Below are positions 207-15,097 of a stretch of 37,942 bases of DNA, piece by piece; the stretch's first letter is position 1, and the number at the start of each line of letters is the position of its first letter. The stretch spans positions 1-37,942 of the forward strand of contig CABMCA010000055.1 in assembly GCA_902384525.1 (NCBI GenBank). Reading direction: 5' to 3'. The notes below the pieces were generated by a model that saw only the letters and a list, made by a program, of their open reading frames with translations, did no database searches and had not been told where the DNA came from. Source of the DNA: an uncultured archaeon. GTDB taxonomy: Archaea; Halobacteriota; Methanosarcinia; Methanosarcinales; Methanoperedenaceae. A program made the position numbers and the translations under genes.

Positions 207-228
207 ATTTTCACGGATCCATGAAAAT
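207..228. terminator. Palindrome directly after the RNA methylase stop codon
   Basis: Arms ATTTTCA and TGAAAAT flank a GGATCC centre, giving a 22-bp palindrome with one mismatched pair. It abuts the leftward stop codon at 229-231, so the transcript could form a hairpin there. No T-run follows on the minus strand, so a classical terminator is not certain. Confidence 0.35.
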
Positions 229-1590
229 TTACTTTTTGATCATGACAGCGCCGAAAAACCCATCAGTATTATGAACATGCGGTAATAACCTGAAAAATCC
301 GTCTTCACAGGTTAATTTGCCAGATTCAAAATCATGCATTTCCGATACGGGAACCAGGCAAAAATCCTTTCTCTCAGAAAGAAAACCGCGCACATTATCC
401 TCATTTTCCTCCCTGCTTATCGTGCATGTGACATAGACCAGTCTTCCTCCGGATTTAACAAGCCTGCTGTATTCGCTTAATATCTCTTTCTGTTTCGCTG
501 CAAGTTCTTTGACATCATCCCGGGTCAACCGCCATTTCGAATCCGGGTTCCTCCTGAAAACCCCCATGCCTGAGCAGGGCGCATCTATGAAAACGCAATC
601 CGCCATATTATTATATTCATTTAATGCCTCCCTGTTCGCGGTCTTAATATTGAACGCACCGGCTTTTCCCGCACGGCGCCGCAGGTTCGAAAGTTTAACA
701 GCCGACAGGTCTGAAGCGATTATTGCCCCACGGTTTTTCATCAGTCCTGAAAGGAAAAGGGATTTTCCGCCATTCCCTGCACATGCATCAATTACAAGTT
801 CTCCTGGCTTTACCCCTGTAAGAAGCGTAACAAGCTGGCTTCCTTCGTCCTGCACCTCGAAAAGCCCTTCCTTAAAAGCCCGGGTTTTAAAAATATCTTC
901 TTTCTTATTAACAATCAGGCCAGATGGTGATAATTCCGTTCTTAATGAAGAATATCCCTCTTCATCAAGCGCTTTTTGAAGTGATCCGATATCCGATTTC
1001 AGTGGATTCACCCTGATCGTTAAAGGCGGCTCCATGTTATTAGAACTGCACAAAGCCTCAACTTCTTTAACCGACCCCAGTTCTGTAAGCCATTTTTCAA
1101 CTATCCAGCGTGGGTGTGAATGGTATGCACAAATATATTCGATCCGAACTTTTTCAGGATCAGGGAAGATGACCGTATTTTTATTCTTTAATACTGCTTC
1201 AACCGTTCTTTTTACGAATCCGCTTAACTTACTATTGTCCGATGACATCGCTACTGCATTGTTTACTATTCCTGCTGCCGATACATTCGTAAATAAGGCC
1301 TGGTATGTGCATATCCTGAATAAATTAAGTATTTCCGGATCAAGATTTGTCATAGTGGCTCTTGATGCGTGTCCAATTATGTAATCCAGCCTTCCCGGAT
1401 GGCGCAAGATCCCATAAACGAGATCAACGATAACAGTTTTTTCACCAGATGAAAAATCTTCATTTTTAAAAAGCTCACTAATAATGATATCAGGATATTT
1501 TTTCCCCTGGAGTATTGAGTTCAATAGCAAAAGAACTGAATTATAGCTCTTTTGCCTGATAAGAACATTACTTTTATTATTCTTTCTCAA
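229..1590 (-). CDS. RNA (cytosine-C5) methyltransferase, NOL1/NOP2/Sun family
   Basis: A 453-residue SAM-dependent RNA m5C methyltransferase, similar in layout to bacterial RsmB. Residues about 10-140 form a NusB-like helical RNA-binding domain. The Rossmann-fold catalytic domain carries SAM motif I DACAGNGGKS (268-277), the release cysteine in APCSGMG (C339) and the catalytic nucleophile in VTCTIS (C389). Both family cysteines are present, so the enzyme should be active; whether the target is rRNA or tRNA cannot be read from sequence. The ATG lies inside the upstream ZPR1 gene (14-bp overlap), making it the last gene of a leftward run of ZPR1, SepF and PUA genes. Length is normal for the NusB-containing subgroup. 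Confidence 0.93.
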   Translation of the reverse strand: MRKNNKSNVLIRQKSYNSVLLLLNSILQGKKYPDIIISELFKNEDFSSGEKTVIVDLVYGILRHPGRLDYIIGHASRATMTNLDPEILNLFRICTYQALFTNVSAAGIVNNAVAMSSDNSKLSGFVKRTVEAVLKNKNTVIFPDPEKVRIEYICAYHSHPRWIVEKWLTELGSVKEVEALCSSNNMEPPLTIRVNPLKSDIGSLQKALDEEGYSSLRTELSPSGLIVNKKEDIFKTRAFKEGLFEVQDEGSQLVTLLTGVKPGELVIDACAGNGGKSLFLSGLMKNRGAIIASDLSAVKLSNLRRRAGKAGAFNIKTANREALNEYNNMADCVFIDAPCSGMGVFRRNPDSKWRLTRDDVKELAAKQKEILSEYSRLVKSGGRLVYVTCTISREENEDNVRGFLSERKDFCLVPVSEMHDFESGKLTCEDGFFRLLPHVHNTDGFFGAVMIKK

Positions 1591-2158
1591 AAATGATCAT
1601 ACCCGTCTTAAGACAAGCCGCCTCTTCTTGCGTAAGTTCCCTGTGTGTTGCTTTTTCTGCAATTATGGCGCTATTGCCCAGAGGATCTTCGATAATAACT
1701 GTAATTTCAAATTCCCCGGCTTTGATCTTCTCGATGATAGATTGTAATTCCTGTGCGCGCCTGGTTTTAGGTTCTTCATTCCATCTTACTACCATCTCCA
1801 GGATATCACTCACCCTGTCAAGCACGCCTTCGATATTTGAAATAAACGATTCAGAAGCTGGTCCTGGTTCTATATCGACCCCTAGTTCCGGTATCCTTAT
1901 TGTTCCTGATGTCGAGCGAACCACACGCGCATCAATGTCGTCCCGCGTCGTGACTTTCAATTCATATCGAACGGGTTTGCGCTGGTCCATGATCATGGTA
2001 TCAGAGTATCTTAAACCGCATTCACACTTTGAAGTAATATGCATTACTTCACCAAAAAAAGGAATATTATCTTTTACCCAGTTTGTAACAAGTTCTTTGC
2101 TACAAAGAGGGCAAACGCTTCTGGTAATTGTTAAAATACTGCCTGATTCTGAGTTCAC
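1577..2158 (-). CDS. ZPR1-type zinc-finger protein
   Basis: 193 residues, the usual size of archaeal single-domain ZPR1 proteins (eukaryotic ZPR1 has two copies). The N-terminal zinc ribbon is CPLC (17-20), closed by a CEC motif near residues 44-46. It is followed by the ZPR1 beta-domain with the characteristic run SDTMIMDQRKPVRYELKV and RSTSGTIRIPELGVDIEPG split over residues 52-100. Eukaryotic ZPR1 binds elongation factor EF-1A and helps it fold; a similar role for archaeal aEF1A is inference. Its ATG overlaps the sepF stop by 4 bp (ATGA), implying translational coupling, and its 3' end overlaps the RNA methylase start. Confidence 0.88.
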   Translation of the reverse strand: MNSESGSILTITRSVCPLCSKELVTNWVKDNIPFFGEVMHITSKCECGLRYSDTMIMDQRKPVRYELKVTTRDDIDARVVRSTSGTIRIPELGVDIEPGPASESFISNIEGVLDRVSDILEMVVRWNEEPKTRRAQELQSIIEKIKAGEFEITVIIEDPLGNSAIIAEKATHRELTQEEAACLKTGMIIFEKE

Positions 2159-2523
2159 TTTAACTTTTGCCTGTCTATACGCATGCCACGCGGGGTCACG
2201 ATCACCTGGTCTTCTTTGATCATCGCGATATCACCATGTACATCATTGACAACTGCTTTCAGGTCTTTGATCGCCCTGTCAAAAACCATTTTATCTTTTT
2301 TTGCAGGCGAGACATCGATCATCAGGATATTGCCGTCATAAATTTGTTTTTTTAATTCAGGCATCATTTCAAGTCCTGATAATTCAGCTATTTTTATATA
2401 AGTGTTGGCTGTTTCACCCTGAAAACCCTCTTCATATTCTGAAAGATCAAGTTCCTGATATTCATCCGCATCTGATTTTGTCTTCTTCCCGCCGCCAAAA
2501 AGATTATCTATAAATTTACCCAT
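2155..2523 (-). CDS. sepF: Archaeal SepF, FtsZ membrane anchor
   Basis: A 122-residue SepF/DUF552 protein. The first ~12 residues (MGKFIDNLFGGG) form a short amphipathic membrane-targeting helix, followed by an acidic linker (about 17-40) and the compact SepF core (about 40-118). In archaea studied so far SepF tethers FtsZ to the membrane at midcell, where FtsA is absent. The 48-bp gap to the upstream PUA gene holds an AGGTG ribosome-binding site and a TATA-like stretch, so an internal promoter is possible. It is translationally coupled to the ZPR1 gene. FtsZ itself is not adjacent, although an FtsZ-superfamily gene lies at 19587. Confidence 0.9.
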   Translation of the reverse strand: MGKFIDNLFGGGKKTKSDADEYQELDLSEYEEGFQGETANTYIKIAELSGLEMMPELKKQIYDGNILMIDVSPAKKDKMVFDRAIKDLKAVVNDVHGDIAMIKEDQVIVTPRGMRIDRQKLK

Positions 2524-2571
2524 GAAATATTCACCTTTACTTCGTACTCCTTATTGTTTATATCTATTTAT

Positions 2572-3054
2572 TTATTTCTGTTCAAGGTTCCAGATTTCAT
2601 CCCCTACATAGTGTATGGACTTTACTGCCTTGCCTTTTCCCCCGACCATTTCTTTTCCTACCATAAGGGCTCTTCCGATACCGATCGCTTTCCCATGTGC
2701 TTTCTCTACGATGATGACAAGATCGCCTATGTTTATAGCTGGATCTGCTTCAACAATCCCCGGGCTCATCGTGTCAGCTCCGTTTATGATGAACCTCACA
2801 GCCCCCGGATCAACAAGGACTATGCGGCGCGCCGGGTTCAATTTAAGGGCGCCTTTTACAGTAGGAAATATTTTTCCGTCTATCTTAAATAAAAGAGGTT
2901 CCCCATCCACAAAAATGAAATCCTGTCCCTCACTTTCTACATATTCAAGCTTCCTGCCCTCAAATGATGATGCATCACCAAATGCCTCGACAATATCATT
3001 TACAAGAGCTTTCTGATCTGTTTTTCTTAATACATTCCTTGATTTTATTTTCAT
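2572..3054 (-). CDS. PUA-domain RNA-binding protein, MCT-1/Tma20-like
   Basis: 160 residues with an N-terminal pre-PUA domain (about 1-75) and a C-terminal PUA domain (about 77-155; run ALKLNPARRIVLVDPGAVRF then a GIV-x-AD segment). This is the architecture of archaeal COG2016 proteins, related to eukaryotic MCT-1/Tma20 and the N-terminal half of eIF2D, which act on ribosomes and initiator tRNA. A function in translation is inference from the family. The ATG has a GGTGAG ribosome-binding site five bases upstream and is divergent from the lsm gene. Confidence 0.85.
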   Translation of the reverse strand: MKIKSRNVLRKTDQKALVNDIVEAFGDASSFEGRKLEYVESEGQDFIFVDGEPLLFKIDGKIFPTVKGALKLNPARRIVLVDPGAVRFIINGADTMSPGIVEADPAINIGDLVIIVEKAHGKAIGIGRALMVGKEMVGGKGKAVKSIHYVGDEIWNLEQK

Positions 3055-3138
3055 TGCTCACCAATAGTTTTAAATATTGTACGAACTACTTTGGTGCACT
3101 ATTGAATTAATGGTTTATTAATATTAAGGAGCGTTTTT
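3055..3138. promoter_or_regulatory. Divergent promoter region between PUA and lsm genes
   Basis: TTTTAAATATT at 3068-3078 is a good TATA box for the rightward lsm-rpl37e transcript, with AAGGAG (3126-3131) as ribosome-binding site seven bases before the lsm ATG. Two interleaved inverted repeats sit around it: CACCAA (3059-3064) with TTGGTG (3091-3096), and CAATAG (3062-3067) with CTATTG (3099-3104). They could be an operator, but no regulator is known. Confidence 0.55.
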
Positions 3139-3354
3139 ATGGGAAACAGACCCCTCGACATTCTAAACAATGCGTTAAATAAGTCAGTATTGATACGGTT
3201 AAAAGGCCAGAGAGAGTTCAGAGGCGAATTACAGGGATACGATATCCATATGAATATCGTCCTGGCTAATGCCGAGGAAATAAAAGAGAACGGAACGAAA
3301 AAACTTGGAACAGCAGTTGTACGCGGGGATAATATAGTATTTATTTCTCCATAA
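3139..3354 (+). CDS. Sm-like archaeal protein (SmAP/Lsm)
   Basis: 71 residues forming one Sm fold: Sm1 motif around residues 16-45 ([20 protein letters not shown], with the DxHMN uridine-binding loop) and Sm2 around 55-66 ([14 protein letters not shown], with the RGDN loop). These proteins form heptameric rings that bind U-rich RNA. The ring residues (D, N in Sm1; R, G, D/N in Sm2) are intact. It is followed 22 bp later by the L37e gene, the standard archaeal lsm-rpl37e pair. Confidence 0.96.
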
Positions 3355-3376
3355 GATTTAAAAAGGTGATTAAAAT

Positions 3377-3547
3377 ATGTCAAAAGGTACGCCTTCATTC
3401 GGTAAGAACCAGAAGAAAACACATGTTATATGCAGAAGATGCGGAAAAGCATCAATGAACACGCACACAAAAATGTGCGCATCGTGTGGTTTCGGTAAGA
3501 CCACACACATGAGATCCTACAAATGGCAGGAAAAATGCGGTTACTAA
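3377..3547 (+). CDS. rpl37e: 50S ribosomal protein L37e
   Basis: A 56-residue zinc-ribbon ribosomal protein starting [16 protein letters not shown]. The zinc ligands are CRRC (C19, C22) and CASC (C34, C37), followed by the conserved [12 protein letters not shown] segment. Its GGTGA ribosome-binding site (3365-3369) precedes the ATG. It is co-transcribed with lsm, and the purF gene starts 11 bp after the stop. Confidence 0.96.
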
Positions 3548-3558
3548 GGTGACCACGG

Positions 3559-4959
3559 TTGCATGAAGAATGCGGCATAGTCGGTGTCTCTTTTAAAGAG
3601 GAGACATCTGCCGCACTATCAATCTACTATGCACTTTTTGCTCTCCAGCACAGGGGACAGGAATCCGCAGGAATAACTGTTCATGATGGCAGCCAGGTCC
3701 GTACCTTAAAAGGTATGGGTCTTGTGCCAGATGTTTTTAACAAGGCAGATATACAGAAACTCAAAGGTCATGTAGGGATAGGACATGTCCGATATTCAAC
3801 TACAGGCAGTTCAAAGATCGAGAATTGCCAGCCTCTTCTTGTAAGTTTTAAGAGCGGAACTATAGCTATCGCCCATAATGGTAATCTTGTAAACTCAAAA
3901 GAACTGAGGACTGAGCTTGAGAAAGAGGGACGGATATTCTTATCCGAATCAGACACTGAAGTCATAGCTCATCTCCTTGTCAAGGAACTGATGCATAGCG
4001 AGCTTAAAGATGCAGTTAAAGATGTAATAAAAAAACTTGTCGGTTCATATTCGCTTGCTATCCTGATAGATAAAACAGTTATTGTTATTCGTGACCCGCT
4101 TGGCATAAAACCGCTGTGTTTTGGCTCGCTCGACAATGGTTATGTTGTAGCGTCCGAGAGTGTTGCCATTGATATTTTGAACGGGCAGCTGATACGTGAT
4201 GTAGCTCCTGGCGAAATGCTTGTTTTCAACAATGGGACTTACGAAAGCCACCAGCTGGTAAAATCAAAAAATACTGCCCATTGTGTATTTGAATATATTT
4301 ATTTCGCAAGGCCGGATTCAGTCATAGATGGCCGGCTTGTATATAATGTGAGGATGCGAATAGGAGAGATGCTTTTTAAGGAGCACCCGGCTATAGCAGA
4401 TATCGTTTCGCCTGTTCCTGATTCAGGCATCACATATGCGATCGGTTTCTCAAAGAAATCGGGTATTGATTATATGGAAGGGCTTATGAAGAACCGCTAC
4501 ATAGGCAGGACATTCATTATGCCAGGGCAGGATATGAGAGAAACGGCAGTCAGGCTGAAACTGAACACTATAAAACCAAATATTGAGAGTAAAAGCATTG
4601 TCCTCATCGATGACAGTATTGTGCGCGGAACAACTTCGCGCCGTATAATAGATATGATCCGTAAATCAGGCACAAGGGAGATCCATATGCGAGTAGCAAG
4701 CCCTCCCATTATTTCTCCATGTTATCTGGGGATCGATATGGCAACACGTGAAGAACTTATAGCTGCGCACAAGACAGTAAAAGGCGTTGAGGCCTTAATA
4801 AATGCAGATTCCCTGGGATATTTAAGTATTGATGGACTTGTGGAATCCATAGGGATACCGGTGGATGATCTATGCCTGGGGTGTTTGAGCGGGATATATC
4901 CGGTTGAAATCCCGGGAGAGAAATGCATAAAGAGGCAATTGAAATTGTCGGAATTCTAA
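3559..4959 (+). CDS. purF: Amidophosphoribosyltransferase
   Basis: 466 residues. It catalyses the first committed step of purine synthesis, transferring glutamine-derived ammonia to PRPP. The start is TTG with GGTGA (3548-3552) upstream; this leaves a four-residue propeptide before the glutaminase nucleophile (C5, CGIVGV). The glutaminase domain covers about 5-230 (GHVRYST at 75-81, HNGN at 107-110). The PRT domain has the PRPP loop VLIDDSIVRGTTS (348-360). Four cysteines (C242, C388, C439, C442) match the [4Fe-4S] ligands of the Bacillus-type enzyme, so this is the iron-sulfur, oxygen-sensitive form with a cleaved propeptide. Full length and intact. Confidence 0.97.
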   Translation: MHEECGIVGVSFKEETSAALSIYYALFALQHRGQESAGITVHDGSQVRTLKGMGLVPDVFNKADIQKLKGHVGIGHVRYSTTGSSKIENCQPLLVSFKSGTIAIAHNGNLVNSKELRTELEKEGRIFLSESDTEVIAHLLVKELMHSELKDAVKDVIKKLVGSYSLAILIDKTVIVIRDPLGIKPLCFGSLDNGYVVASESVAIDILNGQLIRDVAPGEMLVFNNGTYESHQLVKSKNTAHCVFEYIYFARPDSVIDGRLVYNVRMRIGEMLFKEHPAIADIVSPVPDSGITYAIGFSKKSGIDYMEGLMKNRYIGRTFIMPGQDMRETAVRLKLNTIKPNIESKSIVLIDDSIVRGTTSRRIIDMIRKSGTREIHMRVASPPIISPCYLGIDMATREELIAAHKTVKGVEALINADSLGYLSIDGLVESIGIPVDDLCLGCLSGIYPVEIPGEKCIKRQLKLSEF

Positions 4960-5007
4960 GGGAAAACTAAAAAAGAGGGAACTTCTATTAGACAGTGAGG
5001 CACAACT

Positions 5008-5640
5008 ATGGGCATAATAAAAAGGCTGGGACTTAATTTTTCCTGGTTGAAAAGACTATTTAAGAGAAAAAAAGCGAAAATCGGAATATATGGCCCCCCC
5101 AATGCTGGTAAAACTACACTGGCCAACAGGATCGTCAGGGATTGGACCGGGGATGCCATGGGTTCGGTATCCCATATTCCGCATGAGACACGAAGAGCAA
5201 GAAGGCGTGAAGATGTTACAATAGTGAGTAACGGTTCTTCCGTAACACTGGATATTATAGATACACCAGGAATTGCTACAAAGATCGATTTTCACGATTT
5301 CATGACTTTCGGACTCCCGGAGGAGGAATCGAAACGACGCGCCAAAGAGGCAACAGAAGGCGTAATGGAATCTGTCAAATGGCTTGAAGACTTAGATGGC
5401 GTAATACTGGTAATGGATGCAACCGAAGACCCGTATACCCAGGTTAATGTTGTCATAATTGGAAATTTTGAAGCCCGGAAGCTTCCCATATTGATAGCAG
5501 CAAACAAGATAGACCTTCCAAATTCATCACCGGCAAGGATACAAAGCGCTTTTCCCCAACATCCGCTTGTTCCCATATCCGCTCTTGATGGGAAGAACAT
5601 AGATTTATTGTATAAAGAAATTGCAGAGCATTTCGGGTGA
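5008..5640 (+). CDS. arvA: Era-like small GTPase ArvA/OapA
   Basis: 210 residues with a full G domain: G1 GPPNAGKT (29-36), G3 DTPG (85-88), G4 NKID (166-169), G5 SAL (191-193). A basic amphipathic stretch (about 12-22, WLKRLFKRKKA) precedes the G domain and could contact membrane. The next two genes encode a DUF2073 protein and a zinc-ribbon protein, which is the conserved euryarchaeal OapABC/ArvABC cluster. In Haloferax volcanii this GTPase is required for extracellular vesicle formation and was earlier called origin-associated. Assignment rests on the three-gene order plus the G domain; the function in this lineage is inferred. Confidence 0.87.
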   Translation: MGIIKRLGLNFSWLKRLFKRKKAKIGIYGPPNAGKTTLANRIVRDWTGDAMGSVSHIPHETRRARRREDVTIVSNGSSVTLDIIDTPGIATKIDFHDFMTFGLPEEESKRRAKEATEGVMESVKWLEDLDGVILVMDATEDPYTQVNVVIIGNFEARKLPILIAANKIDLPNSSPARIQSAFPQHPLVPISALDGKNIDLLYKEIAEHFG

Positions 5641-5644
5641 TTAT

Positions 5645-6001
5645 ATGAAAGGAATTCAGATGGATTTAATATCGGAAGAAAAACTTGATGCCATGACTTC
5701 CATGGAAAAAGTGAGGTTGATTCTTGACGAAGTGCGAAACGGAAAGATACTCATACTTGAAAAAGGGCTTACTCCCAATGAACAGACAAAACTAATTGAA
5801 CTTACAATGGCAGAGATAGAACCTGATGATTTTTCAGGAATTGAGATCGAAAGTTACCCTGTAAAACAAAACGAAAATTTCCTGAATAAACTTTTTGGAA
5901 AAACAACCCTCAAGACACGCCTTACGGTTATAGGCCCGGCATCACAGTTAAAAACAATTAGAAAAGATAGGGATCTAATAAGCGCATTAGTCTCACCATA
6001 A
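5645..6001 (+). CDS. arvB: DUF2073 protein ArvB/OapB
   Basis: 118 residues from the ATG at 5645, chosen because GGGTGA (around 5633-5638) lies at a suitable distance; an upstream in-frame ATG at 5621 overlaps arvA and has no obvious site. The protein is a small mixed alpha/beta DUF2073 protein (run GLTPNEQTKLIELTMAEIEP in the middle, FGKTTLKTRLTVIGPASQLK near the C-terminus) without transmembrane segments. It is the middle gene of the ArvABC cluster and is presumed to work with the GTPase; no biochemical activity can be read from it. Confidence 0.82.
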   Translation: MKGIQMDLISEEKLDAMTSMEKVRLILDEVRNGKILILEKGLTPNEQTKLIELTMAEIEPDDFSGIEIESYPVKQNENFLNKLFGKTTLKTRLTVIGPASQLKTIRKDRDLISALVSP

Positions 6002-6004
6002 GCT

Positions 6005-6442
6005 ATGCCACATAAATGCACAAGATGCGAGAGCATATTCAAGGACGGCGCAGCCATCATATTGAACGGCTGCCCGAAATGCGGGTGGAATAAGTTCCTT
6101 TATGTGAGAGATGACTCATCCGCGCCCGGACCAGCCGCAAAAATCGAGACTGCGGCAAACACAGGTCAAATATCCCCTGAAGCTTCGAATTTCATAAGAG
6201 AAGTCGATGAGATACTGGGAATTAAGGAAGAAAAAACCGAATTAAAAAATGAACCTAAAGCTGAAAATGCACAAAAAGAGATCGGGGACAGGATCGAATC
6301 AATCAGGATAGTATCGCCAGGGCAGTACGAATTAAATCTTGAATCGCTGCTTGAAAGAAAAGAAATTGTCATGGCGCTCAAAGAAGATGGCACATATATC
6401 GTTAATTTGCCATCTGTCTTTAAGAAAAAGAAGGATCACTGA
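6005..6442 (+). CDS. arvC: Zinc-ribbon protein ArvC/OapC
   Basis: 145 residues. The N-terminal zinc ribbon is CTRC (about 5-8) and CPKC (about 23-26), then a low-complexity acidic and alanine-rich linker (about 40-95), then a conserved C-terminal domain (about 97-140, SIRIVSPGQYELNLESLLER). This matches the OapC/ArvC family and completes the arvABC cluster, starting three bases after the arvB stop. The last seven bases overlap the convergent gene on the other strand. Confidence 0.83.
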   Translation: MPHKCTRCESIFKDGAAIILNGCPKCGWNKFLYVRDDSSAPGPAAKIETAANTGQISPEASNFIREVDEILGIKEEKTELKNEPKAENAQKEIGDRIESIRIVSPGQYELNLESLLERKEIVMALKEDGTYIVNLPSVFKKKKDH

Positions 6443-6900
6443 CGGTAGAATTTTGTTGGTGTAGCATTACGGCCTGAATATTCAACAGCATGCTTATCTC
6501 CAGGAAGATAAATAAATATCGTATTAAGAGTGCTTCCAAAACTAACAGATTCATGAATATAATAATTTACATTCTTATCATACCTTGAAATATTTTTCAC
6601 ATGCAGAATTGTCTTATCCTGATCTATCTTTATAATCTCATAACTGAAATTTGAGAAGAGTTCCTGTATCTTTGGCTCGATACTTTTTCCACCCATTAAA
6701 ATAATATACATTTTTGGAATAGTACCAAGATCATAATTCACTATGAATTCAGCATCTGTCTTATCGAATTTTATTGTAACTGATGAGATCTCAAAAGTGC
6801 GGCTGCCTGGCGACCCTCCGGACAATGGGAGAAATAAGAACAATAATACAATAAGAAATATCACAGGGATTAGTTTTTTCATCAGGGATTTGTTATGCAT
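6436..6900 (-). CDS. Small exported protein of unknown function
   Basis: 154 residues. An N-terminal hydrophobic segment (about 10-28, LIPVIFLIVLLFLFLPLSG) preceded by lysines is a signal peptide or membrane anchor. The remaining ~120 residues are beta-rich and extracellular in character, with potential N-glycosylation sites (NFS, NIS, NAT). No known domain is recognised. It is convergent with arvC (7-bp tail-to-tail overlap) and divergent from mdh. Confidence 0.6.
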   Translation of the reverse strand: MHNKSLMKKLIPVIFLIVLLFLFLPLSGGSPGSRTFEISSVTIKFDKTDAEFIVNYDLGTIPKMYIILMGGKSIEPKIQELFSNFSYEIIKIDQDKTILHVKNISRYDKNVNYYIHESVSFGSTLNTIFIYLPGDKHAVEYSGRNATPTKFYRQ

Positions 6901-6986
6901 TCCGCCAATATATCCTTTGCGTCAAATGTGGATAACTATTATCGTCCATTAATCACCTTCATACCAAAAAATCCAGGTGAACATAG

Positions 6987-7916
6987 ATGCCAAAAATCAC
7001 AATTATCGGTGCAGGAGCGGTTGGTTCGACTGCCGCGCAAAGAATAGCAGAAAAAGAACTCGGGGATGTAGTAATGACAGATATAGTTGAAGGGCTGCCC
7101 CAGGGTAAAGCTCTTGACATTCTGGAAGCTGGCCCGCTTCTTGGTTATGATTCAAATATTATCGGAACGAACGATTATAAGGATATTGAAGGCTCGGATG
7201 TAGTTGTCATTACTGCCGGAATAGCAAGAAAACCAGGCATGACAAGGGAAGACCTGTTGAAAATCAATACTAAAATAATAACCGATGTCTCACAGAATAT
7301 CAAACGTTATGCGCCAGATTCTGTGGTTATCACTGTCACGAACCCGCTTGATATAATGACTTATGTGTCCATGAAAACCACAGGTTTTGAACCAAACCGG
7401 GTCTTCGGTATGAGCGGTGTACTTGATTCGGGCAGGTTTGCCACATTTATTGCGCTTGAACTTGGCTGTTCGGTGCGGGATATTAAAGCGATGGTTCTTG
7501 GAGGGCACGGGGATACAATGGTGCCTCTTCCCCGGTTTACAACCGTGTCAGGTGTCCCGATCACAGAGCTGATGCCGGAATCAACAATCAATCGGCTTGT
7601 TGACCGGACGATCAACGGGGGAGCTGAGATCGTCAACCTTCTCAAAACCGGGAGCGCATTTTACGCCCCATCCGCAGCTGTGACAAATATGGTTGAAGCT
7701 GTGATAAAGGATACAAAACGTATTCTCCCGGTATGTGCTTATTTGAATGGGGAGTATGGCAAGAAAGACATCTATCTTGGGGTTCCGGTAAAAATTGGAA
7801 GGAAAGGTATTGAGGAAATCCTTGAACTTGAACTGACTGTTGAAGAGAAAAAAGCCCTGGATAGATCTGCAGAAGCTGTAAAGTCAGGAATTGCATCTCT
7901 TAATGCTGTGGGTTAA
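6987..7916 (+). CDS. mdh: Malate dehydrogenase (NAD-dependent, LDH-like type)
   Basis: 309 residues of the lactate/malate dehydrogenase family. The Rossmann motif GAGAVGS is at 8-14, with D32 at the end of the second strand, which favours NAD over NADP. Substrate-binding arginines R81 and R87 lie in the loop ARKPGMTREDLL, the pattern of malate rather than lactate dehydrogenases. The catalytic histidine is H174 in GGHGDTMVPL. It interconverts malate and oxaloacetate in the partial TCA cycle. AGGTGA (6974-6979) precedes the ATG. It is apparently monocistronic. Confidence 0.95.
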   Translation: MPKITIIGAGAVGSTAAQRIAEKELGDVVMTDIVEGLPQGKALDILEAGPLLGYDSNIIGTNDYKDIEGSDVVVITAGIARKPGMTREDLLKINTKIITDVSQNIKRYAPDSVVITVTNPLDIMTYVSMKTTGFEPNRVFGMSGVLDSGRFATFIALELGCSVRDIKAMVLGGHGDTMVPLPRFTTVSGVPITELMPESTINRLVDRTINGGAEIVNLLKTGSAFYAPSAAVTNMVEAVIKDTKRILPVCAYLNGEYGKKDIYLGVPVKIGRKGIEEILELELTVEEKKALDRSAEAVKSGIASLNAVG

Positions 7917-8214
7917 TTCTAAAATTATTAACAAATATTGTCGCATTCATCAGGTATATTTAAACCCCGATTCAAGTAAGAAGACGATTAGTTTCACCCC
8001 GCTTGGCTTTCTCATAAATACTCATAGAATCATTTCTAATCGAGGTGAACAATTTGGATTTATTCTGGAGTGGACTTGTACAGAGAGCATCTGAGCGCAC
8101 AAGGAACGAAAGGAGAAGCTAGTTCAGCGGAGTGCATGAAACTGCTATTCGAGATATAGAAATGGAGAAGAAACCGACAAACTAAGTGATAAAAGGCAAC
8201 AAATATAAATAGAC
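7917..8214. other. Spacer at the left edge of the restriction island
   Basis: This 298-bp stretch contains the left copy of the 42-bp repeat (7925-7966), an inverted repeat CGATTAG (about 7984-7990) with CTAATCG (about 8037-8043), an AGGTGA site (8043-8048) in front of a short open frame from TTG 8054 that meets TAG at 8120 and, read through, TAA at 8183, and a TATA box (AAATATAAATAG, about 8200-8211) just before vsr. The short frame may be a gene remnant; I do not recognise it. Confidence 0.5.
7925..7966 (+). repeat. 42-bp direct repeat, left copy
   Basis: It matches 12747-12788 at 36 of 42 positions, with shared blocks ACAAATATTG, CATTCATCAG and TATATTT. The two copies bracket the Vsr/methyltransferase/nuclease/Z1 operon. 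The TATATTTAAA part of this copy resembles a TATA box, so the repeat contains promoter-like sequence. Confidence 0.75.
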
Positions 8215-8682
8215 ATGATGCTTAAGATTAAGCCAGATAATATAAAGATTTTTATGGATCATTTGACACCGGCAGAAAGATCCTGGAATATGTCCAGAAT
8301 ACATTCAAAGGACACAAAGCCAGAAGTCTTTGTTAGATCATATCTTCATAGAAATGGCTTTAGATTTCGTATAAATAATAATAATATTACCGGAAAGCCG
8401 GATATTTACCTAAAAAAGTATAATGCAGTTATTTTTGTACATGGATGTTTTTGGCATAGACATAAAAATTGCAAAAGAGCTACAATGCCGAAGTCCAATA
8501 TTGATTATTGGGATTTAAAATTTAAAAAAAATAAAAAAAGAGATAAGTTGATTATGAAAGAATTGCAGATTGAGGGTTATCGAGTTTTTGTGATATGGGA
8601 GTGCCAGGTTAATAATAAATCAGTTCTATATGAACTTACAAATAGTATTAGAAACATAGAAGAGGCAGTACATAATGAATAA
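8215..8682 (+). CDS. vsr: Vsr-type mismatch endonuclease
   Basis: 155 residues (142 if the ATG at 8254 is used, giving MDHLTPAERSWNMSRIHSKD, the usual Vsr N-terminus). The TATA box at about 8200-8211 would place transcription start near 8230, which favours the internal start. Key residues: the metal-binding aspartate D63 in GKPDI and the H76/H81/H83 cluster in VHGCFWHRHKNC with its structural zinc cysteines. Vsr nicks next to T:G mismatches made when 5-methylcytosine deaminates, protecting the genome from the partner methyltransferase. It overlaps that gene by 8 bp. Third positions are AT-rich, unlike the flanking housekeeping genes. Confidence 0.93.
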   Translation: MMLKIKPDNIKIFMDHLTPAERSWNMSRIHSKDTKPEVFVRSYLHRNGFRFRINNNNITGKPDIYLKKYNAVIFVHGCFWHRHKNCKRATMPKSNIDYWDLKFKKNKKRDKLIMKELQIEGYRVFVIWECQVNNKSVLYELTNSIRNIEEAVHNE

Positions 8683-9769
8683 ACCAAAAGTAATTTCTCT
8701 GTTTTCAGGCTGTGGCGGTCTGGATTTGGGCTTCCATCTAGAGGGTTATGAAACCGTCTGGGCTAATGATATTAATGAATATGCTGCCGAAACATTTAAG
8801 AAATACTTTGGTGAAGTTATTACAACTCAAGATGTGGAGACCATTGATCCGTATACAGATAAAAAAATCCCATCTTGTGATTTAATCTTGGGCGGTTTCC
8901 CCTGCCAAGATTTTTCGATAATTTGGAAACAACCCGGCTTAAATGGGTCGCGTGGGAATCTATACAAGAGCTTTTTAAGATTTGTTGATGCAAAAAAACC
9001 AAGGGCATTTGTCGCTGAAAATGTAAAAGGCATATTAACTGCGAATAAGCAACTGGCAATCCAACAAATTATAAGTGATTTTGAAAATATTAATCCCGGA
9101 TATTTAGTTAAAGTCCAACTATATAACTTTGCGGAATATGGAGTGCCACAATTCCGTGAACGAGTTTTAATTGTGGGAGTCAAAATGGATACAGATTTTG
9201 AATTTTTTCATCCTAGACCCACTCACGGTCCATTTGGAAATCTGCCGTATTTTACTGCTGGACAAGCATTAGAAGGCGTCGAAAATGTAGAATTTAATAA
9301 TGAAAAATTAAATATTGCTCAAAAGACTAGAGATTTACTAAATTTAATTCCAGAAGGCGGGAATTTCACTGATATTCCTAAGGAACACCCGCTTTATGTT
9401 AAAGGAATGATAAGCCATGTGTATAGACGAATAACCAGAAACGAACCGGCAAAAACGATTATAGCTGCTGGCGGTGGCGGTACTTGGGGCTACCATTACC
9501 CTGAACCAAGACCCTTAACAAATAGAGAGCGTGCTCGCTTGCAAACATTTCCTGATGATTTTCAATTCTACGGGTCTATCAGTGAAGTAAGAAGACAAAT
9601 TGGAAATGCTGTTCCTCCAAACGGTGTACGAGAAACAGCCAGAGCTCTAATGCCACTTTTTAATGGTGATTATCAGAGAACAGACTTAAGAACACTTGAT
9701 ATAGAATTGAAACTTCTTTCGATTAAAGAACGCATACAATATGATTCTAGAAATAATGAACGAGAGTAA
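8675..9769 (+). CDS. DNA (cytosine-5-)-methyltransferase
   Basis: 364 residues with the ordered C5-methyltransferase motifs: I LFSGCGGLDLGF (9-20), IV GGFPCQDFS (73-81, catalytic C77), VI ENVKG (115-119), VIII QFRERVLIVGV (159-169), IX RLQTFPD (288-294) and X RQIGNAVPP (307-315). The variable target-recognition region lies about 190-275, so the recognition site cannot be read directly. It methylates host DNA against the partner nuclease in this island. It overlaps vsr by 8 bp. Length and motifs are complete. Confidence 0.96.
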   Translation: MNKPKVISLFSGCGGLDLGFHLEGYETVWANDINEYAAETFKKYFGEVITTQDVETIDPYTDKKIPSCDLILGGFPCQDFSIIWKQPGLNGSRGNLYKSFLRFVDAKKPRAFVAENVKGILTANKQLAIQQIISDFENINPGYLVKVQLYNFAEYGVPQFRERVLIVGVKMDTDFEFFHPRPTHGPFGNLPYFTAGQALEGVENVEFNNEKLNIAQKTRDLLNLIPEGGNFTDIPKEHPLYVKGMISHVYRRITRNEPAKTIIAAGGGGTWGYHYPEPRPLTNRERARLQTFPDDFQFYGSISEVRRQIGNAVPPNGVRETARALMPLFNGDYQRTDLRTLDIELKLLSIKERIQYDSRNNERE

Positions 9770-9770
9770 A

Positions 9771-10811
9771 ATGGAACTTTTAAATTCAAATTTTCCGCCT
9801 CTTAATACTGGAAACAGGTCTTTTGCCGATGCATTTGACGAATTACTATTTGAAGCGGATACGATTCGAATTGCTACAGGATATATAACCGCTGATTCAG
9901 TTGCTGAATTGCAGCGTAGTGTGGAGTTAAATTTAAAACTTAAAGTTGACCTGATTATTGGAATGCATTATTTTGACCTTTTCACAAGAAAAGAATACCA
10001 AGCTTCTTTAAACTTCGGCAAGTTCTTAAGTGAAAAAAGTATGGGTGGAGTTTTTTTATCAACTGCTTTTAAATATCACGGGAAAATATATTCATTTTTA
10101 AAAAATAAAGAACCCATTGGTTCAATTGTGGGTTCAAATAACTTAAGCAGCATTACAGAATATAGCAGAGTCTACGAGACAAGTCTTTTATTTAATGATA
10201 GAAGCAAAGGTATAGAATTAAATAACTTTATTGATAATTTAATAAGTGTATCAAAGCCTATCGAAGCACTTCGAATTGAAGTATTTAATGAATACAACAA
10301 ATTGCTAATTGAGCATGAAAATGTTGAGACTGTTGATCCCATTGAAGTTAAAAAAATACCCTTAACAGACATTAGATTTACAATTCCACTTAAAGTTAGT
10401 GCTTCGCATTCAAAGAGCAATTTAAATGTCTTCTTCGGAAAAGGAAGGGAAGATAAAAGGGGTCTTATAAAACCGCGGCATTGGTACGAAATTGAATTAA
10501 TTGTCCCGAGTGAAATTACTAGCATGAACGGTTATCCCAACTTGGAAAGTGGAAATAATATTTTTGATGTTATTACTGATGATGGATGGAAATTTAGATG
10601 CAAAGTGAGCGGTGATTATAATAAAAATCTTCGATCAGAAGGGGACTTGAAAATATTAGGTAAATGGTTAAAAGGCAGGCTTGAAAATGCCGGCGCATTA
10701 GATGTTGGTGAATTAGTTACAGAAGAAACACTACAAAAGTATGGGCGTTCAGATTTTGAGCTAATAAAAACAGAAATCAAAAACCTTTGGTATCTAAATT
10801 TTGGAGTATAA
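9771..10811 (+). CDS. NgoFVII-like restriction endonuclease, PLD fold
   Basis: 346 residues from the ATG just after the methyltransferase stop; in-frame ATGs at 9741 and 9756 would overlap that gene. The N-terminal half is a phospholipase-D-type nuclease domain: IRIATGYITADS at the first strand, then HGK (about 103-105) and GSNNLS (about 121-126) with a conserved glutamate in YETSLLF, i.e. one HxK(x)nN half-site that would need a dimer. The C-terminal half (about 220-346) is probably the DNA-binding/target domain. The family includes NgoFVII and is typically next to a C5-methyltransferase. No methionine or motif loss is seen; the cognate site is unknown. Confidence 0.82.
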   Translation: MELLNSNFPPLNTGNRSFADAFDELLFEADTIRIATGYITADSVAELQRSVELNLKLKVDLIIGMHYFDLFTRKEYQASLNFGKFLSEKSMGGVFLSTAFKYHGKIYSFLKNKEPIGSIVGSNNLSSITEYSRVYETSLLFNDRSKGIELNNFIDNLISVSKPIEALRIEVFNEYNKLLIEHENVETVDPIEVKKIPLTDIRFTIPLKVSASHSKSNLNVFFGKGREDKRGLIKPRHWYEIELIVPSEITSMNGYPNLESGNNIFDVITDDGWKFRCKVSGDYNKNLRSEGDLKILGKWLKGRLENAGALDVGELVTEETLQKYGRSDFELIKTEIKNLWYLNFGV

Positions 10812-10812
10812 C

Positions 10813-12699
10813 ATGCATTTTAATAGTTATATTGAAAGAGTGCGCCAAGAGAACTCTTCTGAATTAGCTGATTCGATTTCTAAGACTACCGCCAAAATTA
10901 TTAATCCGCATATTAAGACGTTTTCTTATGATACACATATTAACGGCCTGCTTCTCGGCAATGTTCAAAGTGGAAAAACTAGTCAAGTATTCGGAATAAT
11001 AAGCGCTGCAGCAGATGAAGGGTTTAGGATTTTCATATTATTAACAACAGATAATATATATCTTCAACAGCAAACATATGCAAGAGCCATTAAGTTCCTT
11101 GATAGTTTCAATGTATGCGGTGAAGAAGATGAAATTAGGTTCAAAGAAAATAACTTAAGAAAGCCTACAATCGTCATCCTAAAAAAGAATGCAAGTGTTC
11201 TGAGAAAATGGAACGGCAATTTAACTTCTTCAGGATTTTGTACAGGAAATCCGATATTCATCATCGATGATGAAGCAGATGCGGCAAGCTTAAATACAAA
11301 AATCAACCAAGATGATATCAGTACTATAAACAAATCACTTGACTCCATGAAGAAGAAGTCAGCAAGCAGTATATATCTGCAAGTTACAGCAACCCCTCAA
11401 GCGGTATTGCTACAGACAATTGATTCAGGTTGGAAACCTAGATTTGTTCAGTATTTTGAGCCTGGAACCGGCTATCTTGGCGGAGATTTTTTTTATAACC
11501 AAGAACCAATCCCTAACTGTATTCGATTTACATCAGATAATGAACTTGATGATTTGCTTTCAGATGACGAATTCCCGGAAAACGGATTAATACGTTCTCT
11601 TTGTTCATTTTTAGTTATTTCTGCTCACTTAATTAAAACTGAAAATAAAAGAGTTTCAAACTTTTTAATTCATCCGAGTATCAAAATCGCTGATCATGAA
11701 CTAATTGCTGATAAAATTGGTTCATATTTGAATAGAATGATTCTTGAAATCCAAGAAGATAAGTTGTTTGAGAAACTAAAGGAATCTTGGGACGATTTAA
11801 AGAAAACTAAAAGTGAATTAATTGATTTTGATTCTGCTTGTAATTTTATAAAAGAGTCTTTAAATAATAACCAGATAAAAATAATGGTTATGAATTCCCG
11901 TAATGAGATAGGAGATTATAGTAATGGTATGAATATTATTGTTGGCGGTAATAGTCTTGGCCGAGGAGTTACTTTTCCTGCACTGAATGTGGTTTATTAT
12001 TGTCGCAGAGCTAAAGCCCCTCAAGCAGATACATTTTGGCAACATTGCCGTGTTTTTGGTTATGATAGAGACAAAAACCTAATAAGGATATTTATTCCAC
12101 CAATTTTATTTAAATTGTTTTCAGAATTAAATCAAAGTAACAGGTCAATTATATCTCAAATTCAAAAGAACAATATTGACAACATACACCTTCTCTATAA
12201 TGGAAATACAAAACCAACAAGAAAAAATGTTATTGATCAATCAAATTTGTCGTTAATAACGGGCGGTACAAATTATTTTCCTATTTATCCAATCAACAAA
12301 GACTTAAAAGCTCTTGACGAAATATTATCTACTTTTGACCAACGAGAATATCATTCAGTTAATATTAATTATTTTTTAAAAATACTTGAAAATATATTAA
12401 GTGAAGATGATTCTGACTGGCCTTCAACTTTATATTATGAATGCATAAAAGCCTTTATTGCAGATAAGCCGGGAGAACAGGGCATTTTAATTGTCCGCAG
12501 AGAAAGGGATATTGCAAAAAACACAGGGACTTTGCTTTCTCCTGATGACAGAAACTTAGGTGGCAGATTTATTAATAATATTGTGTTAACACTATATAGG
12601 ATAACAGGCAATAAAAATAAGGGATGGAACGGATCACCTATTTGGATTCCAAATATAAGATTCCCTGATGGTCTAAATTTTTATAAAATTATAGGGTAG
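10813..12699 (+). CDS. Z1-domain ATPase linked to restriction-modification
   Basis: 628 residues from the ATG at 10813, preceded at good spacing by GGAG (10803-10806); an upstream in-frame TTG at 10801 would place that site inside the gene. Helicase-like ATPase features are visible: Walker A GNVQSGKT (49-56), Walker B IIDDEADA (150-157), TATPQ (193-197), GGNSLGRGVTF (378-388) and an arginine-finger-like QHCRVFGY (410-417). This is the Z1/DEAD-like family found beside C5-methyltransferase, Vsr and NgoFVII-type nucleases. Its exact role (translocation or licensing of cleavage) is not established. It starts one base after the nuclease stop. Confidence 0.85.
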   Translation: MHFNSYIERVRQENSSELADSISKTTAKIINPHIKTFSYDTHINGLLLGNVQSGKTSQVFGIISAAADEGFRIFILLTTDNIYLQQQTYARAIKFLDSFNVCGEEDEIRFKENNLRKPTIVILKKNASVLRKWNGNLTSSGFCTGNPIFIIDDEADAASLNTKINQDDISTINKSLDSMKKKSASSIYLQVTATPQAVLLQTIDSGWKPRFVQYFEPGTGYLGGDFFYNQEPIPNCIRFTSDNELDDLLSDDEFPENGLIRSLCSFLVISAHLIKTENKRVSNFLIHPSIKIADHELIADKIGSYLNRMILEIQEDKLFEKLKESWDDLKKTKSELIDFDSACNFIKESLNNNQIKIMVMNSRNEIGDYSNGMNIIVGGNSLGRGVTFPALNVVYYCRRAKAPQADTFWQHCRVFGYDRDKNLIRIFIPPILFKLFSELNQSNRSIISQIQKNNIDNIHLLYNGNTKPTRKNVIDQSNLSLITGGTNYFPIYPINKDLKALDEILSTFDQREYHSVNINYFLKILENILSEDDSDWPSTLYYECIKAFIADKPGEQGILIVRRERDIAKNTGTLLSPDDRNLGGRFINNIVLTLYRITGNKNKGWNGSPIWIPNIRFPDGLNFYKIIG

Positions 12700-12746
12700 C
12701 TGCAATTGGCTCCTTATAAATTCAACAGAAAAAGAGATCCCTCTAT

Positions 12747-12788
12747 TTATTGACAAATATTGCCACATTCATCAGTTATATTTGATCC
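12747..12788 (+). repeat. 42-bp direct repeat, right copy
   Basis: Second copy of the sequence at 7925-7966 (36/42 identical). It lies between the Z1 gene and the sulfite reductase gene. Its TTATATTTGA segment is about 55-65 bp before the sulfite reductase ATG and could be that gene's TATA box; a second candidate, TTATTTAAATAT, lies at 12809-12820. Confidence 0.75.
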
Positions 12789-12842
12789 TGCAAGTTAAAC
12801 ACCCAGAATTATTTAAATATCAACTGTATATCAAGGTGAACC

Positions 12843-13700
12843 ATGACATTAGAAAAACTCGACATATCGATCCTTAAAAAATCCGGTTATATGAAACAGA
12901 AGCAAAAAGACCTTTTCGTGGTCAGGCTTCGAATGCCCTGCGGCAATGTCACTTCAGACCAGCTTTCAGGGATAAGCCGTCTTACCCGGAAATACGGCAC
13001 CGGATACATACATATCACAACCCGCCAGGGGATGCAGATCCCGAATGTGGATATACATAACCTGGATGCGATAACAAAAGAACTCGAAGACAATGGGACG
13101 CCGCCAGGCTCCTGCGGTCCGCGGGTACGTAATATAATTTCATGCCCGGGGAATCTCGAATGCAATTACGGCATTATAGACACTTATGGTCTCGCAGGAA
13201 TACTAGATAAGGAATTTTTTGGCGAAGATATGCCTGTTAAGATAAAATTCGCTGTAACAGGATGCCCAAATGCATGTGCTAAGCCGCAGGAGAACGACCT
13301 CGGAGTAATGGGCATACTCAAACCCGTTATTAATTCCGATGCTTGTTCAGGATGCGGGACATGCACTTTCATGTGCCCGGAAAAGGCTATAGTTCTGGAA
13401 GATGATAAGGCCAAAATCATCTGGGACAAGTGCAACCTGTGTGGAGCATGTGTTGGAACTTGCCCTTCTGATCTTATAATTGAGGAGTGGAAAGGCTATA
13501 GGCTCTTTGTGGGCGGAAAAATAGGAAAACATCCCAAACTCGGGAGAGAATTGACAGATGCAAAATCCGCTGAGGAAGCTGTCGCCATATTCAGGAGGAT
13601 TATTGACTGGTCAAAGAAGAATACCAATATTGGTGAGCGGTTTGGAGATTGTCTGGAACGTGTGGGATTCGAGAACTTCAGTAAAGATATCTTAGGATAG
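12843..13700 (+). CDS. Small siroheme sulfite reductase with two [4Fe-4S] clusters
   Basis: 285 residues. Residues about 15-160 are a sulfite/nitrite reductase half with the siroheme-[4Fe-4S] ligand pattern C101-x5-C107 and C141-x3-C145 (CPGNLEC, GCPNAC). A ferredoxin insert follows with C168/C171/C174/C178 and C197/C200/C203/C207. This is the short Dsr-like protein class found in methanogens and ANME archaea. Beside APS reductase and ATP sulfurylase it most likely reduces sulfite to sulfide for assimilation, but a nitrite- or sulfite-detoxifying role is possible. An AAGGTGA site (12834-12840) precedes the ATG, and APS reductase follows after 7 bp. Confidence 0.85.
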
Positions 13701-14441: not shown

Positions 14442-14861
14442 TCAATCTGGAATTTCACGCAGGGTTAAAACCTCAATTTCCTTCACATTACAAAGTTTCT
14501 CATCATTAGTCACGAAGACATCCCCTTTTTTTGTGATCACGGATGCCAGCTGGATCGCATCGGGTGTTTTTATCCCATATTTTGCCCGAAGCTGCGCCGC
14601 TTTTATTGAGACCGGTTCATCCATTGCCACCATATCAAGCTGAGCTTGCAGGATTGTTTTATACTGCTCAACGAGATCGAATCTTTTTTCCCTGAGAGGT
14701 TTTACAAGCAATTCAAGGAGTGTAACATAAGATGTTATGCCTGTGGCTTTTCCCTCAGCGATCCTGTCTATCAGCGGTTCGATTTTCCTGAGGTAAAAAG
14801 GATGTTCCTCGATGTAATAGATGAGCACATTGGTATCAAGTCCTATCCGTTTATAGTTCAC
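14442..14861 (-). CDS. vapC: VapC-type PIN-domain toxin
   Basis: 139 residues of a PIN ribonuclease. The acidic metal-binding residues are D9 (LDTNVLI), E50 (TLLELLV), D101 (TPDAIQLA) and D120 (VTNDEKL), so the active site looks complete. VapC toxins usually cut specific tRNA or rRNA loops. The ATG overlaps the vapB stop by 4 bp, a normal antitoxin-first arrangement. The pair lies antisense between the APS reductase and ATP sulfurylase genes and ends 14 bp from the former. Confidence 0.93.
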   Translation of the reverse strand: MNYKRIGLDTNVLIYYIEEHPFYLRKIEPLIDRIAEGKATGITSYVTLLELLVKPLREKRFDLVEQYKTILQAQLDMVAMDEPVSIKAAQLRAKYGIKTPDAIQLASVITKKGDVFVTNDEKLCNVKEIEVLTLREIPD

Positions 14862-15097
14862 CAGCTCTCCCGCTCCTTTTTGATATAATCTTCGACATCA
14901 ATATCTTTCCATATTTCCTTGCCAAGACCTTTTAAATCCTTAAGCGATAACCGCGTTTTGTTCCCAGTTTTTTTCATTACTATCTCATCATCTTTCTCAT
15001 AGACCTGCAATATATCCCCTTTTGATATTCCAAGAAGTTCACGTATGTCCTTGGGTATCACTACCTGGAACTTATGGCTTACTTTTGTTAAAGGCAT
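14858..15097 (-). CDS. vapB: AbrB/MazE-like antitoxin VapB
   Basis: 79 residues. An N-terminal swapped-hairpin AbrB DNA-binding domain (about 1-45; KVSHKFQVVIPKDIRELLGI, then KGDILQVYEKDDEIVMKK) is followed by a charged C-terminal helix (about 50-79) that should wrap the toxin. It neutralises VapC and probably represses its own promoter. The ATG is directly preceded by two copies of the presumed operator, with no ribosome-binding site, so the message is probably leaderless. Confidence 0.9.
   Translation of the reverse strand: MPLTKVSHKFQVVIPKDIRELLGISKGDILQVYEKDDEIVMKKTGNKTRLSLKDLKGLGKEIWKDIDVEDYIKKERESW

Follow-up and report, generated by a model that had tools for sequence, protein, structure and literature searches.

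How did a bacterial-type restriction-modification (R-M) operon come to lie between mdh and a sulfite/nitrite reductase-type gene (sir) in an archaeon of the Methanoperedenaceae, flanked by two copies of one 42-bp sequence? The locus belongs to a stretch of 37,942 nucleotides (contig CABMCA010000055.1 of assembly GCA_902384525.1, forward strand), here called the window, whose numbering is used throughout. An initial annotation had noted the repeat and offered two readings of it, namely that the island inserted in, and duplicated, the promoter region of sir, or that a repeated sequence had served as an exchange point.

A bacterial-type restriction operon

The features of the island and its flanks are collected in Table 1. 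When read from its likely start, Vsr scored 131.9 bits against TIGR00632 (cut-off 97.85), the methyltransferase translation contained the PCQ and ENV motifs, and Z1 contained a Walker-like GNVQSGKT and DDEAD, with a second possible start at ATG 10813. The endonuclease matched the R.NgoVII structure (PDB 4rct, E 1.3e-80), was 42% identical to a protein in Neisseria gonorrhoeae and had an HGK that fits the HXK catalytic motif, of a type described previously (PMC4081073). The top relatives of the operon were bacterial (Clostridia, Desulfosporosinus), with identities of ~70% for the methyltransferase (M) and 51–57% for the endonuclease (R), and kept the order M-R-Z1, often with a Vsr gene after Z1. 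No relative of the endonuclease was found among 393 genomes of the phylum, the best methyltransferase match within the genus stood at 43%, and Z1 had only distant relatives in the genus; viral contigs provided two endonuclease matches (53% and 38%). The island is AT-rich, as had been noted, with ~29–38% GC versus ~40–47% around most of it. We infer that the operon encodes an active restriction system, with GCSGC as its likely target. In the flanks this site is not depleted: it was seen 39 times, where base composition predicts 24.5. Such a count agrees with either a recent arrival or a different specificity.

Table 1. Features of the island and of its borders in the window.
Feature	Coordinates	Strand	Basis or remark
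mdh, malate/lactate dehydrogenase, native left flank	6987..7916	+	Pfam Ldh_1_N/Ldh_1_C
Left repeat copy, sir promoter element in a form from outside this species' clade	7925..7966	+	
Small-gene promoter box ATTAGTTTCACCCCGCTTGG	7987..8006	+	Conserved in other small-gene copies; also at some further places in the genus
Decayed small gene	8054..8176	+	TTG for ATG; in-frame TAG at 8120-8122 (codon 23)
vsr, mismatch nicking endonuclease, likely start ATG 8257	8215..8682	+	Pfam Vsr 1.6e-30
C5 cytosine methyltransferase	8675..9769	+	Pfam DNA_methylase PF00145 1.6e-74, 251.7 bits
NgoFVII-type PLD restriction endonuclease	9741..10811	+	Pfam RE_NgoFVII PF09565 and RE_NgoFVII_C PF20731, above cut-off
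Z1-domain ATPase ('Type II helicase domain protein')	10801..12699	+	Pfam Z1 4.6e-30; PADLOC PDLC03202 5e-221
Right repeat copy, native sir promoter element	12747..12788	+	One difference from G021, core to sir ATG
Second conserved TATA-like stretch of the sir promoter, TATTTAAATATC	12810..12821	+	Conserved in genus alignment
sir, sulfite/nitrite reductase-type gene, native right flank	12843..13700	+	Pfam NIR_SIR

Empty sites in close relatives

Two close relatives, G018 and G003, represent empty sites in which mdh is joined directly to sir with a single copy of the repeat motif between them. The products of mdh and sir are each 96% identical in amino acids to those of G018, and mdh is collinear with both relatives. 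Alignment of the window to G018 extends from 227 to 7961 and resumes at 12753, and both alignments cover the motif. The mdh–sir junction in related genomes, which had been proposed as the place to look, thus supports insertion into the sir promoter region. In G021, which is also close, a different and divergent gene lies upstream of sir, and by reading of its sequence it is argininosuccinate lyase-like. Just past sir and the PAPS reductase genes, we also observed a pair comprising a PIN-domain protein and a MazE-type antitoxin (14442-15097, minus strand).

The window contains no tRNA, which rules out tRNA-targeted integration, and no integrase was seen in the inserted segment, whose four intact genes are those for Vsr, M, R and Z1. 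With these genes and with a directly repeated promoter element at its borders, the segment falls outside integrase-borne genomic islands, which are recognized by an integrase or transposase together with att sites or terminal inverted repeats.

The border repeat as a sir promoter element

The 42-bp direct repeat was confirmed at the positions and with the 36/42 identity first reported; no other 42-mer comparison of the two intergenic regions scored higher, and with shuffled bases (n = 15) the best match reached 22–25. The 23-bp core of the repeat occurs twice in the window, versus 0.02 occurrences expected, and TATATTT lies within each copy, as had also been pointed out. A pattern search in 31 genomes of the genus revealed the motif in 25, and in 21 aligned relatives a clear copy, one per genome, precedes sir. 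Other matches in the genus have 2–3 mismatches and no adjacent sir, and no second close copy away from sir was found in the genomes of the genus that were searched. The case that the initial annotation had set against its own reading, with the 42-bp sequence upstream of many unrelated genes, was searched for within the genus and not found; a scattered promoter motif is ruled out by the position of the element before sir, as one clear copy per genome. We take the motif to be a conserved element of the sir promoter.

TATATTT is present in all the aligned sir-promoter copies, where it is followed, nearer the sir start, by a second TATA-like stretch (TTTAAATATC or similar), and either of the two may be the functional TATA box of sir. 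The left copy has no such second stretch after it. The motif AGGTGAAC, originally said to follow both copies, was found at 8043-8050 and at 12834-12841, the latter one base off the 12835-12842 first given. Since it occurs five times in the window, once just ahead of mdh (6975), we read it as a recurrent ribosome-binding-site motif, and the occurrence at 8043 belongs to the small gene described below.

Two copies in two forms

Homology of the left copy to other sir promoters extends from ~7921 to near 7972, where it stops with no sir start following, and includes, after the copy, AAACCCCGAT, as in the promoters of some other species. The copies differ at six sites. Five of these show the genus-majority letter in the left copy, and in the right copy the positions around CAGT and TTTGATCC read as in its own clade. 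The comparison involves a few tens of bases, with a short diagnostic stretch (~20 bases after the core) and with junctions known from the assembly alone. The genus-common letters on the left, and the match of the right copy to the nearest species, suggest that the left copy was probably brought in from elsewhere.

A long target duplication would also leave a repeat bordering the inserted segment and a single copy in the empty site, if the local sir promoter element had been duplicated upon insertion and the left copy, free of constraint, had later diverged. Its differences, however, run to genus-majority letters rather than being random, the AAACCCCGAT after it matches the promoters of other species, and the right copy is nearly unchanged from that of G021. 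Duplication of the local promoter, as first suggested, is therefore not supported, and we judge it unlikely; the other early suggestion, a repeated sequence used as an exchange point, fits better. We also considered a reciprocal crossover of a circle, by which the left copy would have a native left and a foreign right half and the right copy the reverse, but the stretch to the left of the core, short and AT-rich, offers too little by which to judge it.

A decayed small gene behind the left copy

The island has a fifth component, which the initial annotation overlooked: the segment 7970-8180 represents, in decayed form, a small gene (~42 codons) of a dispersed kind. The mini-frame listed at 8054 does exist, but as the remains of this gene, with an altered start and an internal stop codon (Table 1). 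Likewise, the repeat copies had been described as lying exactly outside the four-gene operon, which has to be amended on the left, where the decayed gene and its own promoter lie between repeat and vsr.

The segment matches a gene widespread in the genus that consists of a box (ATTASTTTCACYCCGCTTGG), a TATA-like stretch, a GAGGTGA conserved among relatives and an ORF of 41–48 codons. The relatives of its product are 39–48 aa long, with the consensus MDLFWSGLxxRASEHTRxERRSQFSxVHE. Most genomes of the genus have one to few copies, which adjoin different genes in different species, and a version of 39 codons is present in a second family of the order. The gene is under coding constraint, with a median dN/dS of 0.16 and third codon positions varying most. 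No Pfam, NCBIfam or Rfam match was found for the small protein; a structured RNA at 7970-8180 is ruled out by the lack of an Rfam match and the coding pattern of variation, and a viral gene by its absence from the viral contigs searched. The copy nearest to that in the window is in G016 (84% DNA identity, with weak support for the tree fork), and the copies that the same genome has on C42 and C54 are more distant.

The box, as TACTTTCACYCCGCTTGG, was also observed before a tRNA-like sequence (G041), a zinc-ribbon-like ORF (G008, G043) and an ORF (G020), and may be the mark of a shared regulator. Separately, at G003:C46:37279-44188, a partial copy of the small gene and a C5 methyltransferase that belongs to the same broad class (38%) lie ~6 kb apart.

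Origin of the island

We consider it reasonably probable that recombination at the sir promoter element, shared by incoming and resident DNA, recently brought the R-M operon in between mdh and sir. The incoming DNA would have carried a sir-promoter element and the small gene, both from another species of the genus, beside the operon, all parts arriving jointly; the shared element would have provided the homology for exchange, with the foreign copy ending up at the left border and the native sir promoter kept complete at the right one, and the small gene would have decayed after arrival. Several observations support this: G018 and G003 have empty sites, the element is specific to sir and its two copies differ in form, the small gene is present in decayed form, the operon has bacterial relatives, and the island is low in GC. 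A donor arrangement with sir element, small gene and operon together was found in no genome. Since the native sir promoter is whole on the right, sir is probably still expressed normally.

The island points to three sources (sir promoters of other species, a G016-like small gene and bacterial operon genes), and the junction near 7970 shares only GAT. Both would suit a stepwise build-up in which a foreign fragment with sir element and small gene came first and the restriction operon later, out of a bacterium and in a separate event. That scheme, however, needs two events at one site, and no genome with the first step alone was found, so that it seems to us quite improbable. The genome is a draft assembly of 130 contigs and the cargo is of bacterial type, as might be expected had DNA of different organisms been joined artificially; yet both flanks are native, an archaeal small gene adjoins the operon and there is no long exact repeat that could mislead an assembler, and we give an artefact hardly any credence. 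In particular, a misjoin driven by the repeat is unlikely because exact runs common to both copies are only ~10 bases.

Beyond import at the shared element in this one genome, a more speculative and rather doubtful extension is that the sir promoter element is a recurrent exchange point, where foreign DNA enters upstream and leaves the promoter whole, with the small gene and its box as a dispersed unit travelling along. For this locus, import would describe a route by which a defence operon enters the chromosome beside a metabolic gene with the promoter undamaged, apparently via a short shared promoter element alone. The island is in itself unremarkable. Unexpected was the small-protein family found across the order, an unnamed protein that is conserved in more than one family of these archaea and can now be tested for its function.

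Comparison with known systems

The operon resembles the NgoFVII-type Type II R-M system in its PLD endonuclease with both NgoFVII domains, N- and C-terminal, and in the C5 cytosine methyltransferase adjoining it. NgoFVII and AspCNI are related GCSGC enzymes of the PLD class (PMC4081073); here, GCSGC specificity is only predicted, and the site counts show no avoidance. The M-R-Z1 order is that of many bacteria, some of them with Vsr, but the host here is archaeal, and Vsr comes first rather than last as in most of the relatives seen. As in defence islands acquired through homologous recombination at conserved sequence on their flanks, the chromosomal site is conserved and has an empty counterpart in relatives. 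Unlike in those islands, the shared sequence is the promoter element of a metabolic gene, and its two copies carry the forms of different species.
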